DNA of 36,100 nucleotides from Hallerella porci. Its GTDB lineage: Bacteria > Fibrobacterota > Fibrobacteria > Fibrobacterales > Fibrobacteraceae. The position numbers were made by a program, and so were the translations under genes. The stretch covers positions 1 to 36,100 of the forward strand of contig NZ_QGHD01000027.1 in assembly GCF_003148885.1 (NCBI RefSeq), written 5' to 3'. This document shows positions 25,777 to 31,788 of the stretch, piece by piece. Numbering within the stretch: position 1 is the stretch's first letter; the number at the start of each line of letters is the position of its first letter. Below the pieces are notes generated by a model that did not search any database, was not told the DNA's origin, and saw nothing but the letters and a program-made list of their open reading frames with translations.

Positions 25777-27465
25777 TTAAAGTTCCCAATTCGTTCTGAA
25801 AGTATTAATCAATCTTTCTTGTCGATTTTCCACAACCTCTAATGTCCATGAACTTTCGCTCAAAACTTGCGTTGCCAGAGCATAGGAAGTTACACCATTC
25901 TTTGACTTGAAATATTTTTCTTTTTTCTTCTCGAAGTCAAAATTTTGCGCAGCAGAATTATGCTTTCTGGTTAACGGTATCAAATTTCCAATTTTATGAA
26001 CCCAATTTTTCCGGGTTTCTGCATCGGGCCAAGTAGTAGCCCATTCAGATTCTGGATCTACTGTTTGTGGCAAAACATGTTCAATAGTAAGAATGGCGGG
26101 ATCATAAGACGCCCCAGCACTGGCAACAAAGCTATCCAATCTGAGTATTATATAATTTCTCCTTTTAGCCATCTCGTCATAAACGTTTCCGCTCAATACA
26201 TTCATAAATTTTCGTTTTTCATCTTCAGTTAGTTCAATTGAACTTATCTTCGCATCTTTAGAATGATTGGGGTTCACTTCCATTTCGGCCAGAATTTTAG
26301 CATATCGTTCAATTCGATGATTTACATCCTGAGAAGTAATCTGCAAATATGCTGCCAAACGTTCCAGTTTCTTCACGAACCAAAGGATATAATCTGAATC
26401 GTCTTTCTTTCCCGCAAAAAATTTTATTGCTGTAGGCATCCAATCCGAGTTGTCAATTTTATTCAACCAATACAAATAATTATTTACTTGTTCAGCATTC
26501 CTTGTCGCGATATAGTCTTTTTTCTTAAGAATGCAATATGCTTCTGTATAAGGGGTCAAATAATTATCTATCAAATCAGCGGGATTAAATCTCGGTAGAA
26601 TAGACTCGCTAAATTCCTCTAAAACCGTTTTCTTCGCTTTGGCTTTTATGAAAATCATTCGCATATGAGAAATAACATCGTTGAAGCCATTTCTTGTAGC
26701 ATCAATTTCCAATTCTTCCCATTTTTTTGTATAACCATCTTGCCGACTTTCTTCTATTTTCCCAATAACATCAGCCTTGATAATATCAATCGGAAGTAAA
26801 TCCAAGCCTCGATTATTCATCACAGAAAACACACGATATGCAGATTTTTGTGTTGGCGTCGAAACAACCACCAAGAAACATCTCATTAAGATGAACGAAC
26901 CAAATTTAAGGAGATCCTCTTCGGTCATTTCTTTATCATGGATTTTCTTTTCAAAAATCTCAGCATTTTCTAAAATATGCTTTTGCGACTCCGTAGCCAA
27001 AGAAGCCTTATCCAAAGCCAACAAATCAGAAAGTTGAAATTCTTGAATATATCTTTCAAAAAATGGTTGATCTTTTTCACGCAAGTGTAATCTAGGTGAT
27101 GCTGCTAATCCTTGTGACGGACGACCAGGCTCCCTTAAATAACTTTGGTAATCTGATACAATTTCAGTTTTTGAAAAATGAGTAGTAAGGACAGAAAGTA
27201 GGATAGTCAATGTAGTTAAACGCTGTTGACCATCTATTACATCAGCTCTTGGCTTATCCTCTTCTTTGATAAGAACTGTAGATCCAAGGAAATAATTTTC
27301 CTCACTTCGCTCCGATTTATAGAAGCCGTATAAATCCTCAAATAAGGTTGAAGCTTCTTCAGTTCCCCATGCGTATGGACGCTGATAAGAAGGAATATGA
27401 AAGTCAAATGCAGAACTAAAAATCTGCGAGATTTGGTATTCTTTGCCCGAAATTTTTGTACTCAT
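25777..27465 (-). CDS. DUF262/DUF1524 protein, GmrSD-like restriction factor
   Basis: The 562-aa protein joins an N-terminal DUF262 domain, with IPSYQRPYAW (24-33) and DGQQRLTTL (78-86), to a C-terminal DUF1524 HNH-type domain, with ILTIEHVLPQ (about 460) and HKIGNLIPLTRKHNSAAQN. In GmrSD, which restricts glucosylated phage DNA, DUF262 is an NTP-using ParB-like module and DUF1524 the nuclease. Here both are in one chain, a common arrangement. The catalytic His of IEHVLP and the NxxAxN-type end of the HNH are present. The gene follows the PIN gene by 24 nt behind AAAGG and is AT-rich like the AAA and PIN genes. It may target phages whose modified DNA evades the flanking R-M enzymes. Confidence 0.92.
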   Translation of the reverse strand: MSTKISGKEYQISQIFSSAFDFHIPSYQRPYAWGTEEASTLFEDLYGFYKSERSEENYFLGSTVLIKEEDKPRADVIDGQQRLTTLTILLSVLTTHFSKTEIVSDYQSYLREPGRPSQGLAASPRLHLREKDQPFFERYIQEFQLSDLLALDKASLATESQKHILENAEIFEKKIHDKEMTEEDLLKFGSFILMRCFLVVVSTPTQKSAYRVFSVMNNRGLDLLPIDIIKADVIGKIEESRQDGYTKKWEELEIDATRNGFNDVISHMRMIFIKAKAKKTVLEEFSESILPRFNPADLIDNYLTPYTEAYCILKKKDYIATRNAEQVNNYLYWLNKIDNSDWMPTAIKFFAGKKDDSDYILWFVKKLERLAAYLQITSQDVNHRIERYAKILAEMEVNPNHSKDAKISSIELTEDEKRKFMNVLSGNVYDEMAKRRNYIILRLDSFVASAGASYDPAILTIEHVLPQTVDPESEWATTWPDAETRKNWVHKIGNLIPLTRKHNSAAQNFDFEKKKEKYFKSKNGVTSYALATQVLSESSWTLEVVENRQERLINTFRTNWEL

Positions 27466-27489
27466 ATAGCATAACCTTTTTTCTACACT

Positions 27490-28005
27490 TTAGTTCGGGA
27501 TGTATTGAAAATGGTTTAAATCCCGATCTATTGACCAAATCTTTATAGATGTCATCTTCATCTTTTTCTTCAATTTTTCAAAAGTCTGAATAATTGAATG
27601 GTCGCCCCAGCTAATACCCTCTGTCTGCTTTTTGGGAGATTTATCACTTCCAGCGGCTTCAGGAAACGTAGTCAACCATTCTAAAACATCTTCATTCTTG
27701 GGGGGATCAACAACTCGAAATGGAGCTTTTCCCGTCATAGCATCCTTTACTAGTTCGCAAAAAAGCAATGCATATTTTTTTCGAACATCTTTCCCAGTCT
27801 TTATATGAGCAATAAAATTACCAGTCTCCCAAATTGTGGAGAAAGGCAATATAAAACGATTTACCTCTTCAGGATAATTTTCAAATTCTCTCTGGACGGC
27901 ATCCTTCTCTTGACAACGATCTGGAATTTCCAAAAGATTTAAAAGAATACTTGTATCAAGCAAAATAATGCTACAAAGTTCTTCTTTATTCTTTTTCTTT
28001 GACAC
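27490..28005 (-). CDS. PIN-like nuclease paired with the AAA ATPase
   Basis: The 171-aa protein shows the PIN tetrad in order: D17 in ILLDTS, E60 in IWETGNF, D135 in SWGDHSII and D160 in WSIDRDL. PIN proteins cut RNA, less often structured DNA, using metal ions held by these acids. The start is GTG at 28005 after AGAGG, 10 nt beyond the ATPase stop, so the two genes are coupled. The pair resembles ATPase-effector defence systems in which an SMC-like ATPase restrains a nuclease (as in PARIS, where the effector is a Toprim protein), with PIN as the effector. Target and trigger are unknown. Confidence 0.82.
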   Translation of the reverse strand: MSKKKNKEELCSIILLDTSILLNLLEIPDRCQEKDAVQREFENYPEEVNRFILPFSTIWETGNFIAHIKTGKDVRKKYALLFCELVKDAMTGKAPFRVVDPPKNEDVLEWLTTFPEAAGSDKSPKKQTEGISWGDHSIIQTFEKLKKKMKMTSIKIWSIDRDLNHFQYIPN

Positions 28006-28015
28006 AATTTACCTC

Positions 28016-29344
28016 TTAACCTTTAATTTCAGATTTCAATTTTGCCAGCCAGGAATAAGCACTTTCAGACTTCCCATTATTTGCTAAATTCTTTTTCACA
28101 AAATCATTTATTCGATTTGACACAAGTAAATCACCTAAACTTCCTTGAACGAGTAAATCAAAGTAATTCGGCAAATCTGATATTTTCCTTAACTTACTCG
28201 ACCCATCCACAGGATCTCGATAACAAAAAACGCAATCAGATACAATTTCATCAGGCAAAGCGTCTAATAGTGTAGGGTTATGAGTCGTAATAAGAATTTT
28301 CAAGTGACGTTTTTGGGCAACTTCATTTATTTTTGACAAAAGAGTTTTCGCTCTTGATGGATGAATACCATTGTCCAATTCCTCAATCACAACGGTAGAG
28401 TATTCCGGCGAAGATAAAAGTGCTACAGCAATAGCCAAGACTCTCAGGGTTCCATCCGACAACAACGAAGCATCATATTCTTTTCCTTCACCCCCAAAGG
28501 ATTCTTTTAATGAAACAATGCTTTCTCCACGGGGTTCTTTAATCGAAAAAAGTCCTGTAAAGTTCTGTTCCGGTAAATTTTTTATAAAATCAAGTATGTC
28601 CTTTTTATTCTTTTTTCTTTCCTCTCTAGTGTATGCCGCAGGATTTCTCGTTAGATTGTATATAACACCAGAAAGGTTCCCTCCATTTTCTGTTAACGCA
28701 CGATCTCTAGCACAATAACTCCGCATTTTTGCAGGAACCGGATCTAAAAAAATAAAGGAATCCAACGTTTTCTCTATTGTTTTACATACATTAGGAATAA
28801 TTTCTTTCGATTTTTCATATTTTTCTTGGAAAGGCGCAGATGTCGTTAATTGCGAAAAAATAGTCATTTGATCGGAGCAATTAATTAAATTTTTTTTACT
28901 TCCTCGAGTAAAATTATCATACGAAACAACGACATCCGAAGCATACACACCGCCTGAGCGTTCTTTAATTTTATATAAAGGAATTTTTCTTTTAGATGAT
29001 GAAACCGATTCATTTGAAATATGCAATTCTTCATCAAGCAAAGAAAGCGTCAACTCAAGATTATCATAATCACAATCATCAAAATTGCACAAAAAAGAGC
29101 ATTCTGATGAATCCTGGTACATTAAATTACTTATTTTTCCTCGAATCCCCCCCTCTTTATTAAATGTTGAATATGGTAGTGATGATAACTTTTGTCCTTG
29201 GGCTAAAATAGACATAAAACGCAGGGCTTCTATAGCATTACTTTTGCCGGATGCATTGGCTCCAATTAACACCGTAAAGGGAGACAATTCAAAGGTTGCA
29301 TCTTTATAGCTTTTAAAATTTTGGATTCGTATAGATTTTAACAT
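28016..29344 (-). CDS. AAA (ABC/SMC-like) ATPase paired with the PIN nuclease
   Basis: The 442-aa protein of the AAA_21/OLD-like class starts with IRIQNFKSYKDATFEL and has Walker A GANASGKS (28-35). A long variable helical insert (about 60-280) is followed by the signature LLSDGTLRVLAIAVALL and Walker B VVIEELDNGIHP, then a THNP switch histidine. There is no C-terminal Toprim domain, so the nuclease is supplied by the next gene. The gene begins 26 bp after the mod stop. Its AT-rich composition contrasts with the mod 3' end, marking the border of an inserted module. Likely a sensor ATPase; the trigger is unknown. Confidence 0.9.
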   Translation of the reverse strand: MLKSIRIQNFKSYKDATFELSPFTVLIGANASGKSNAIEALRFMSILAQGQKLSSLPYSTFNKEGGIRGKISNLMYQDSSECSFLCNFDDCDYDNLELTLSLLDEELHISNESVSSSKRKIPLYKIKERSGGVYASDVVVSYDNFTRGSKKNLINCSDQMTIFSQLTTSAPFQEKYEKSKEIIPNVCKTIEKTLDSFIFLDPVPAKMRSYCARDRALTENGGNLSGVIYNLTRNPAAYTREERKKNKKDILDFIKNLPEQNFTGLFSIKEPRGESIVSLKESFGGEGKEYDASLLSDGTLRVLAIAVALLSSPEYSTVVIEELDNGIHPSRAKTLLSKINEVAQKRHLKILITTHNPTLLDALPDEIVSDCVFCYRDPVDGSSKLRKISDLPNYFDLLVQGSLGDLLVSNRINDFVKKNLANNGKSESAYSWLAKLKSEIKG

Positions 29345-29370
29345 AAAGAACCTCTTCTTCCAAATATAAG

Positions 29371-31788
29371 TTAAATAACCTTGACTGTAGTGTTGGGGCT
29401 GATTGTTTTGAAGATTTCGGTGACGTTGATTTTGGCGGAGTCGCTTTTGAAGCTGGAGTCGCGGAAGACGGCGCGGAGGGGCTTGGCGGCTGCGATTTGG
29501 CGGATGGCGGCTTCGGGGATGTCGTTTGCGAAGCAGGCGACTAGGTCGCCGTCGTTGACGTTATAGACTTGGAGTTTTTCGATGGTTTCGGTTTTGATGG
29601 GGAGCGAGAGCGGGACGCCCCAATCGACGAGGCAGCCGAAGAGGAGGTCCATGTCGGTGCGGCCGTCCTTGATGTTGCTGATTTGCTCGACGAGGTCTTG
29701 CTGGGAGATTTCGCCGGCGGAGTAATAGACGTCCTTCATGTTGGAGTCGTCGATTTTCAGGACGCGGAAGCCGCGGTCAGAGTTTAGAACTGAGAGCTTA
29801 GAACTTAGACCTTTGATGTCAAATGCTTTATCAGCGAAGAGATCATTTTGCTGATTTCTTCCAAGAGCTTCAAGCTTGATTCGATATCCGTTTTCGTTAA
29901 GTATTTTAAGCGTTCGCAAATCAACAATTGTGTTTCCAGTTCCGCTCGTGATCCCCTTGCTATTTTCAAAAACTGGACAAACTCCTTGCTCCCCCGAGAT
30001 TGCCCCTCCGCTATGTTCGACGGAATCGACACCACAGCCCTGCGAATTTGATCCGACAGAGCGTATGTTTCCTCCTTCGGCAACCTCTTCACCAAGGCAT
30101 AGACCAATTCCACTAGACCCATAGACTTCTTCCAAACTTCTAATTTCTGGTAATTCTCTTGCATACTTTTCGACAATTCCTTCTTTTTCTAAGTTCTGTA
30201 AACTAAGCTCTAAGATCTGATCGCCTGCGCGGCGGATGCGTTCCTTGCCGATTTCGCAGATGGTCTTGTAAGTCGGCGACTTGGTTTCTTCCGGAACTTG
30301 AACCAAAATAAACTTGCGGTTTCCACCATCTTCCGCATTTTTCTTAAATACGGAATGAGCCGTTGTTGCAGAGCCTGAGAAGAAATCAAGAATTAAAGAA
30401 TCCTTATCTGTCGCAATAGTCAAAATTCTGTCAAGCAAACGAGTCGGCTTTGGCGTATCAAAAGGTGCTTTTCCATCAAACAACGCTAAAATTTCTTTCT
30501 TCGCTTCGTCGGTGTGTCCCACTTCTACATAAGGCCATAAATTTGTTGGCAAACGCCCATCAACATTATCAAGATATGTTTTTCTACGAATTCCACCTAA
30601 TCCATTTTTTGTAAAATAGAATTTCGGCCATTGTCCACGATTGTATATTACTTGGGCTTGTTTCCTTGACGTTTCTATATCATTTTTTAAAACAATTCCC
30701 AAAACACCCTTGCGAACATCATTTTCGGCAATTCCACAAACTTCGGCACGCTTTGAAGCATCGTTCAAATCTTTTAATTCATATTCACACCAACCACTCA
30801 TTATCGAAAACATTTCATTTTGCTCATAACGCCAACAGCATCCCGTAGCAGGATAAATATATTCTCCCGTAAAAGGATGTTGTATCGCATAAACCATTCC
30901 TTGGTGTGTTGAAGCTCCGGGGGCATTGGGGTCGGAACTAGTCCAAGGCGCAAAGTCGTTATCAGGATTTTTGTATTTGGCATCCATTTCAGCCGTTCTT
31001 GGCAATTTATAAGGAGTCCAATTTCCATTTCTGCCATATATCAAAATAGATTCGGCTTCAGAAGCAATACCTTTTGAATCATTTCTTGGTGAGTATGTTC
31101 TTTGCCAATCAACATTAGCCACAAAACAATCTCCGCCAAATACTTCATCGCAAATCTTTTTCAGGTTTGCTTGTTCATTATCGTCGATGCTGATAAATAT
31201 CACGCCATCGTCGGTGAGCAGGTTGCGGGCGAGCAGCAGGCGGCTGTAAATCATGGAACACCAGTCAGAATGGAAACGGCCGTTGCTGTCGGAATTCTGC
31301 ACCATGCGATTTCCTTCGTCGTCCACGGCGCCGCTTTCTTCGGCGTACTTGGCGCTGTCCATGCGGAAGTCGTCTTTGTAGATAAAGTCGTTGCCGGTGT
31401 TGTAGGGCGGGTCGATGTATATCATCTTGACCTTGCCCACGTAGCCTTCTTGCAAGAGTTTCAGGGCTTCGAGATTGTCGCCTTCGATGTAGAGGTTCTC
31501 GGTGATGTCGAAGTTCTTGGATTCTTCCACGCAGGGGCGCAGCGTCTTGCGGATGGGTTTCGCGGCTTCCACCATGGCGTCGCGCTTGCCGACCCAGGTA
31601 AATTCGTAAGATTCGTCGCCTTCCGCGACGCTCTCGCCAAGCATCTGCTTGAGCGCATCGAAATTCACCGCCTTCTTCAGCTTGCCATCCTTGGCCTTGC
31701 TTTCGGTCACGCAATTCGGGAACAGCGCGGCAATCTTCTCGACGTTCATCTGCGCCATATCGGGAGTTTCAAACTTCATCTTTTCCAT
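29371..31788 (-). CDS. mod: Type III R-M methyltransferase (Mod), carrying an intron-like insert
   Basis: The 805-aa N6-adenine methyltransferase also recognises the target for the whole type III complex. Motif IV DPPYNTGNDF (126-135) comes before the SAM motif FFSGSATTAH (about 466), the beta order normal for Mod. The recognition domain lies between them and is AT-rich (about 30240-31180), while both ends of the gene are GC-rich, suggesting exchange of the recognition domain. Residues 524-670 do not look like Mod: they are the translation of a 440-bp insert (29779-30218), after which normal Mod sequence resumes at RGFRVLKIDDSNMKDVYY. The insert leaves the frame open, adding about 147 residues. 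The ATG follows AAAGG and overlaps the end of the DUF4143 ATPase gene by 20 nt. Confidence 0.93.
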   Translation of the reverse strand: MEKMKFETPDMAQMNVEKIAALFPNCVTESKAKDGKLKKAVNFDALKQMLGESVAEGDESYEFTWVGKRDAMVEAAKPIRKTLRPCVEESKNFDITENLYIEGDNLEALKLLQEGYVGKVKMIYIDPPYNTGNDFIYKDDFRMDSAKYAEESGAVDDEGNRMVQNSDSNGRFHSDWCSMIYSRLLLARNLLTDDGVIFISIDDNEQANLKKICDEVFGGDCFVANVDWQRTYSPRNDSKGIASEAESILIYGRNGNWTPYKLPRTAEMDAKYKNPDNDFAPWTSSDPNAPGASTHQGMVYAIQHPFTGEYIYPATGCCWRYEQNEMFSIMSGWCEYELKDLNDASKRAEVCGIAENDVRKGVLGIVLKNDIETSRKQAQVIYNRGQWPKFYFTKNGLGGIRRKTYLDNVDGRLPTNLWPYVEVGHTDEAKKEILALFDGKAPFDTPKPTRLLDRILTIATDKDSLILDFFSGSATTAHSVFKKNAEDGGNRKFILVQVPEETKSPTYKTICEIGKERIRRAGDQILELSLQNLEKEGIVEKYARELPEIRSLEEVYGSSGIGLCLGEEVAEGGNIRSVGSNSQGCGVDSVEHSGGAISGEQGVCPVFENSKGITSGTGNTIVDLRTLKILNENGYRIKLEALGRNQQNDLFADKAFDIKGLSSKLSVLNSDRGFRVLKIDDSNMKDVYYSAGEISQQDLVEQISNIKDGRTDMDLLFGCLVDWGVPLSLPIKTETIEKLQVYNVNDGDLVACFANDIPEAAIRQIAAAKPLRAVFRDSSFKSDSAKINVTEIFKTISPNTTVKVI
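29779..29809 (+). repeat. Terminal inverted repeat of the insert, mod 3' side
   Basis: It is rich in CTTAGA units and pairs with 30188-30218 over 31 bp with nine mismatches, the longest clean stretch being agaacttaga. The stop codon of the enclosed ORF (29805-29807) lies inside this arm. Confidence 0.85.
29805..30176 (-). CDS. Four-helix-bundle (23S rRNA IVS-type) protein nested in mod
   Basis: The ORF is read in a different frame from mod on the same strand. It gives up to 123 aa, or 119 aa from the ATG at 30164. The first codon here is TTG, directly after AAGGAA. The sequence NYQKLEVWKKSMGLVELVY, then RAVVSIPSNIAEGQSRGS, FVQFLKIARGSRAELETQL and LLEEISKMISSLIKHL, is the complete S23/IVP family pattern with SIPSNIAEG intact. 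These proteins are encoded in intervening sequences of 23S rRNA genes and elsewhere; they form oligomeric helical bundles and their role is unclear. No decay is visible, so the ORF appears to be under selection. Confidence 0.9.
   Translation of the reverse strand: MSKSMQENYQKLEVWKKSMGLVELVYALVKRLPKEETYALSDQIRRAVVSIPSNIAEGQSRGSKEFVQFLKIARGSRAELETQLLICERLKYLTKTDIESSLKLLEEISKMISSLIKHLTSKV
30188..30218 (-). repeat. Terminal inverted repeat of the insert, mod 5' side
   Basis: This is the partner arm of 29779-29809. On the minus strand it reads as repeated CTTAGA-type units and is translated in the mod frame as ILELSLQNL. Confidence 0.85.

Follow-up and report, generated by a model that had tools for sequence, protein, structure and literature searches.

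The window, which is the whole stretch of 36,100 nucleotides of Hallerella porci DNA analyzed here, contains a type III mod gene and the gene for its restriction partner, Res (Table 1). In profile searches, the Mod protein matches PADLOC MTase_III (E=1.4e-215) and Pfam N6_N4_Mtase (E=2e-30). The interval between mod and res (window 25777-29344) holds a PDC-M07A ATPase, a PDC-M07B gene and a GmrSD-type gene, which are other defense candidates within the type III system. The mod gene contains an insert with a second gene, S23, between two inverted arrays of 7-bp units (heptads).

Table 1. Positions of the mod-associated features in the window
Feature	Position	Strand	Basis
Type III restriction subunit Res, Mod partner, 1015 aa	21709..24756	minus	PADLOC REase_III, E=3e-300
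Type III mod gene, 805 aa, frame open through insert	29371..31788	minus	ORF list
Mod N-terminal and catalytic part, residues 1-523, with target-recognition region	30220..31788	minus	Alignment
Mod C-terminal part after insert (DRGFRVLK...)	29374..29778	minus	Alignment
S23/IVS element inserted in mod, 441 bp = 147 mod codons, Mod residues 524-670	29779..30219	minus	Alignment with insert-free Mods L006-L016
S23 four-helix-bundle gene, ATG start, 119 aa, +1 frame relative to mod	29805..30164	minus	PF05635, TIGR02436
Shine-Dalgarno-like AAGGA before S23 ATG	30178..30182	minus	Weak consensus match, long spacing
5' arm, four heptads ATCTTAG-AGCTTAG-TTTACAG-AACTTAG	30189..30216	minus	Sequence; heptad periodicity of S23 flanks
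3' arm, inverted copy, four heptads CTAAGTT-CTAAGCT-CTCAGTT-CTAAACT	29781..29808	minus	Sequence; inverted repeat; stem energy

The insert and its relatives

The alignment with insert-free homologues stops at Mod residue D523 (30222-30220) and resumes at D671 (29778-29776), and the resulting borders agree within a base or two with those of the initial annotation. That annotation had also described an intact S23 gene in a frame other than that of mod, with mod itself reading through, and both points hold: the S23 ORF matches PF05635 (E=8e-39) and TIGR02436 (E=1e-37) in Pfam and NCBIfam searches, and none of the 147 insert codons is a stop in the mod frame. The S23 gene likely starts at the ATG at 30164 rather than at the TTG at 30176, judging from homologues that begin at or near that methionine, and its TAA stop falls within the first heptad of the 3' arm. 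The element lies on the mod strand, i.e., sense in the host transcript. The family matches and the stem-forming terminal repeats bear out its assignment as an IVS-type (S23) element within a protein gene; because its host is mod and not the variable helix of 23S rRNA, we refer to it as an IVS-type element and not as a 23S IVS.

The same insert, identical in site and kind, is present in Fibrobacter intestinalis ATCC 43854 (contig NZ_FUWU01000067.1), and this equivalent placement indicates that its presence in mod is not due to chance. The two species share an S23 protein without a single difference over 119 residues (100% identity), and so, conservation of S23 at this site is observed. Other related Fibrobacteraceae Mods (L006-L010; 68-79% identity over the whole alignment) have no counterpart of residues 524-670, and the Mod C-terminal part is 91-97% identical to that of L007-L010. 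Insert-free Fibrobacteraceae Mods have a variable linker of 13-35 residues at the insert site. This linker is about 35 residues long between RRAGD and GFRVLK in L006-L010 and far shorter in Mods of 45-50% identity; thus, the insert takes the place of a hypervariable linker, against which no target duplication is discernible. In an AF2 model of Mod the insert is the least confident part (pLDDT 24-33) and almost without secondary structure, in a model that is poor as a whole (mean pLDDT 49.5, 12 sequences). The inserted loop of about 147 residues is probably unstructured.

Only two of 440 insert sites differ between the window and F. intestinalis, both of them synonymous for S23 and nonsynonymous for Mod, versus 43 of 1213 sites in the mod flanks outside the target-recognition region (p=2e-5). 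Both heptad arms are identical. The low divergence would mean either a recent insert or a double constraint on it, and it may reflect recent transfer rather than constraint. The target-recognition region (window 30424-31188) differs at 222 of 765 sites, which is 29% compared to 3.5% in the rest of mod without the insert, and this is probably an exchanged specificity region. Outside the insert, Mod has dN/dS values of 0.02-0.23, indicating purifying selection, and therefore it looks functional. Beyond F. intestinalis, the S23 proteins closest to that of the window come from Akkermansiaceae (79%) and Lentisphaeria (75%). Horizontal transfer is suggested by the S23 tree, which runs across phyla.

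Heptad arms

The initial annotation described the insert as bounded by inverted repeats of CTTAGA-type units. The repeats are indeed complementary, but they consist of tandem 7-bp units in inverted orientation and are not simply of the CTTAGA type. An ungapped comparison of the terminal arms shows 73% complementarity over 37 nt. Folded with a bulge, they form a stem of about 30 pairs with an energy of -34.7 kcal/mol, compared to -16.7 +/- 3.3 for 300 shuffled versions, none of which reached so low a value. In each arm a single heptad deviates, and it is the only unit whose consensus would create a stop in the mod frame. Read directly from the sequence, unit 3 of the 5' arm (30202-30196, TTTACAG) has CAG where the consensus gives a mod-frame TAG, and unit 3 of the 3' arm (29794-29788, CTCAGTT) has TCA where the consensus gives TAA.

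Such arms are common. Among 180 unique S23 genes from Fibrobacterota and one GTDB scan, a 7-bp period (at least 0.7 self-match) occurs in 58% of the upstream and 43% of the downstream flanks, compared to 0% after shuffling. Other periods from 4 to 13 are near the shuffled level, and beyond 7 only period 14 gives a signal. Within an element, the downstream heptad is the upstream one in inverted form, with 47 of 72 pairs sharing 6 or 7 of 7 bases versus about 7 expected from swapped arms. The heptads vary from element to element (48 distinct ones). Therefore, with period-7 flanks and inverted shared heptads, heptad arms generally characterize S23 elements across bacteria.

Several other observations concern the arrays. 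Heptad arrays without an S23 gene are found in frame within one Mod (L132), one PglX (L137) and two leucyl-tRNA synthetases (L244 and L379), e.g., NRSQLITNHSPLSTKK, SGQWSVESEQ and QVPSPKSQVP; heptad-only arrays were few in a survey of Treponema leucyl-tRNA synthetases. The arms in the Mod gene of an Akkermansiaceae MAG (L128) have grown by 21-bp units, or three heptads, with the frame kept, resulting in the peptide repeats LELSKEG and SSKLQAP. The genome of the window has two more distant S23-like genes, one (L002, G000:C4:56705-57019) flanked by inverted heptads of the CAATTAA type and the other (L003, G000:C28:210-512) with an ACTAACC array on one side only.

S23 elements in other protein genes and the frame rule

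The initial annotation called a protein-coding host unusual, and this view has to be corrected. Nineteen of the first 180 S23 elements lie within a longer ORF, and apart from one short antisense case they all share its strand and have one relative frame in common. After searches of added lineages there were 26 mechanical read-through cases, all 26 of them in relative frame 2; frame 1 was not represented. Two of these (L130, with no host gene, and L224, with a 169 aa ORF) were dropped for lack of a real host, leaving 24 read-through elements. The arrangement is present in at least seven bacterial phyla.

Eight hosts are type III Mods (L001, L005, L128, L129, L132, L183, L203 and L282), assigned by alignment around the ERIRRAG...GFRV linker. 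The BREX-1 PglX hosts are L133, L137, L106 and L256 (element before the start), plus L135 and L105 by similarity. The remaining hosts are an MmeI-like protein (L141, element between the TRD and C domain), two Eco57I proteins (L075 and L290), one type ISP protein (L247), a BadF/DUF2229 CoA-activase (L248, element between BadF and DUF2229), two leucyl-tRNA synthetases with the element after the editing domain (L243, TIGR00396 1084 bits, and L244, by similarity) and three prepilin-like leaders from Fibrobacterota (L059, L061 and L063), which have no family match and were judged by eye. Placement follows domain borders in the leucyl-tRNA synthetase, MmeI-like and CoA-activase hosts. In the three leader hosts, the in-frame elements lie just before GFTLIELL-type motifs, and prepilin peptidase would cut the peptide off. 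Both genomes with a leucyl-tRNA synthetase host have one match to this enzyme each; they are draft genomes in which a second copy is unlikely.

The frequency of read-through, in samples that are best-scoring matches and not random ones, is 8 of 96 in Fibrobacterota and 6 of 14 in the Treponema order. Among best-scoring matches it is 1 of 30, 1 of 5 and 1 of 30 in the orders of a Bacteroidales, an Oscillospiraceae and an Akkermansiaceae genome, respectively. At least six changes of state, read-through or not, occur on the S23 tree (a quick tree, with a range of 6-9). An internal Shine-Dalgarno sequence of at least 5 nt precedes 13 of 23 read-through elements and 53 of 241 others (p=7e-4). No S23 match was found in the phage sequences searched. 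Plasmid matches are mostly cyanobacterial and carry no information on placement within genes. Four long same-frame S23 ORFs (L317-L320) were considered as fusions, but they look mostly like upstream frame extensions, and L317 is masked with N; no fusion is claimed. A literature search, with subscription papers and preprints outside its scope, returned no report of S23 or IVS elements within protein genes.

A trace of these elements is also seen in a profile library. Two insert peptides match the PADLOC PglX profile PDLC02522, namely the one in the Mod frame of the window (E=5.7e-9, at profile positions 291-406 of 1218) and the one in the PglX frame of L137 (E=5.7e-6). The simplest reading is that sequences used to build this profile contain a same-frame S23 element, and so, the profile seems to have taken up the out-of-frame S23 peptide. 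PDLC02522, which matches the window Mod, can yield false PglX matches wherever a protein has an S23 element that is read through.

The two frames of these elements behave differently. Outside the known read-through cases, stops in the host-type frame of S23 genes occur at 6.9 per 100 codons, and only two of about 161 such genes, L052 (at a contig start) and L130, are without one; both may be remnants. The read-through elements have no host-frame stop within S23, compared to 9.95 per 100 codons in the other forward frame, a difference that is partly case selection as these elements were identified by their openness. In 100 nt of the arms of 23 read-through elements, the host frame has 1 stop and the other two frames have 46 and 79. 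Frame 2 stops come from a third-position T before AA, AG or GA, and changing this T to C is always synonymous for S23; therefore, no S23 protein has a frame 2 stop that could not be removed synonymously, while 70% of S23 proteins have such stops in frame 1. These removable stops would explain the fixed relative frame of the read-through elements, because only frame 2 allows every stop to be removed without changing S23. The frame bias alone gives p of about 0.004-0.03, given 6-9 changes on the tree. As the frame counts alone represent few events, the genetic-code argument bears much of the weight for the frame rule.

Substitutions among the read-through elements fall on S23 codon positions 1, 2 and 3 at.33,.22 and.58, close to other elements. 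Identity in the host frame is about what S23 conservation would predict, including in Mods from other phyla with S23 at the linker. Therefore, the Mod-frame segment is not a common and conserved part of Mod homologues, and the Fibrobacteraceae relatives other than F. intestinalis do not have it. A conserved host-frame peptide was considered and rejected on this ground; a small excess of identity is seen only at 70-80% S23 identity (0.51 versus 0.39 in 8 non-independent pairs). These comparisons indicate that S23 is the frame with the conserved amino acids and that the host frame is merely stop-free.

Interpretation and known systems

We think it probable that the insert is a nested, dual-coding mobile element of the IVS type that is translated through and tolerated as a disordered linker loop, and that it is neither an intron nor an intein. 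The element, an S23 gene between inverted 7-bp arrays, would have settled in the flexible linker that joins the Mod methyltransferase core to the C-terminal domain. Ribosomes presumably run straight through mod to give the 805-residue Mod with its loop. The S23 protein would be made from an internal start on the shared mod mRNA; the Shine-Dalgarno sequence of mod itself is weak. Host-frame stops could be removed by T to C changes at S23 third positions, and so, an element could fit its host without a change in its own protein; elements that fit in this way, in domain linkers or cleavable leaders, would persist. To Mod, the element would be selfish or neutral. The initial annotation had offered tolerance of about 147 extra residues as one option, and the open frame and the insert-free relatives support it. 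Its further suggestion, that the element regulates the balance of modification and restriction, is not supported.

A different fate for the message is that RNase III cuts it at the heptad stem, giving lower or split Mod, with the open frame serving only the uncut fraction. The stems of 23S rRNA IVSs are RNase III substrates (PMC4990558), and the stem in mod is not weakened. In fact, weaker stems in coding hosts were looked for and rejected, with median strengths of 20.3 in read-through hosts and 19.6 elsewhere. Since the stem is intact, cutting of untranslated mod messages would be possible. However, translating ribosomes would be expected to unfold it, a whole host frame without stops makes sense only if intact messages are translated, and the same arrangement in single-copy leucyl-tRNA synthetase is hard to square with full cutting. 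We regard cutting as unlikely, though it deserves consideration. The arrays could also be a phase-variation switch, with gain or loss of 7-bp units changing the reading frame and so setting Mod to on or off. Phase variation is classically known from type III mod, BREX pglX and type IIG genes. Heptad number also differs among Coxiella IVS copies (PMC4990558). However, leucyl-tRNA synthetase and CoA-activase could not be freely switched off, the arm growth in L128 by three heptads keeps the frame, and mod has just four degenerate units per arm, with both arms identical in two species. We consider such a switch very improbable.

Removal of the insert by RNA or protein splicing, to give an ordinary Mod, is suggested by an in-frame insert with terminal inverted repeats, and the initial annotation had raised excision. 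There is, however, no Rfam match at E<=1 over window 29300-30800 and no Pfam or NCBIfam intein family in the inserted Mod-frame peptide; S23 has no known splicing activity, and an open host frame would be needless if the RNA were spliced. Excision as an intron is not sustained, and we give splicing of either kind only the slightest chance. Finally, the 147 residues might be an ordinary Mod domain, overlapped by chance by an S23 ORF or its relic, given an open Mod frame and an apparently intact gene. The strength of the PF05635 match, the identical S23 protein in F. intestinalis, the substitutions at S23 third positions, the absence of the segment from relatives and the heptad arms of free-standing S23 genes all argue against this explanation, and we find it scarcely credible.

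IVS elements have been treated as an rRNA curiosity for more than 25 years. We lean slightly toward a broader statement, i.e., that IVS/S23 elements are widespread nested dual-coding mobile elements to which protein genes, even essential ones, would be habitable because one frame allows the host stops to be removed without touching S23. In-frame IVSs within protein genes provide a clean natural case of overlapping coding, in which host genes tolerate a complete foreign gene. The heptad arms tie together IVSs, heptamer arrays and selfish DNA in coding genes, and they offer a handle for searches. There is also an effect on annotation: the host proteins bear about 145 spurious-looking residues, which seem to have entered at least one public profile, PDLC02522.

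The closest known elements are the IVSs in 23S rRNA with an S23 ORF, as in Coxiella burnetii and Leptospira (PMC4990558). The Coxiella IVS has a variable number of heptameric repeats (GACAGAT) before the S23 start, and its S23 gene is decaying and probably not expressed (PMC4990558). The mod insert resembles the 23S IVSs in its sense S23 protein, its size (441 nt here versus 428-444 nt), its terminal inverted repeats with a long stem and the heptamers before S23. It differs in that the host is a protein gene read in frame, the second frame is open and the S23 amino acids are conserved. The Avd protein of diversity-generating retroelements belongs to a homologous four-helix-bundle family, and the mod S23 protein matches Avd NF033474 and PF22296 bAvd at E=3e-9 and 2e-8, both under the curated cut-offs. 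Neither a reverse transcriptase nor a template/variable repeat came up next to the mod element, in searches not directed at these features.

The cyanobacterial STRR are arrays of heptamer repeats. Arrays of the TAACTGA heptamer occur in Beggiatoaceae, Cyanobacteria and Bacteroidetes, and they are mostly direct; S23 is not mentioned in that report (PMC4679880). Like the S23 arrays, these have tandem 7-bp units in several variants, some within ORFs. However, the arrays at S23 genes are paired, one on each side of the gene, and inverted relative to each other.

Selfish DNA within protein genes is also known from Rickettsia, in the form of the Rickettsia palindromic elements (Ogata 2000/2002, as summarized in PMC10969869). 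By the account in that review, these insert in frame into many unrelated genes and the extra peptide is tolerated. The S23 elements share this, although host function would be an expectation in our case. The Rickettsia elements, by the same account, are about 150 bp long with one host-frame peptide, whereas the mod insert is a complete gene in another frame with heptad-array ends. By analogy, then, S23 elements would work like Rickettsia palindromic elements, and we do not claim that they are members of that group.
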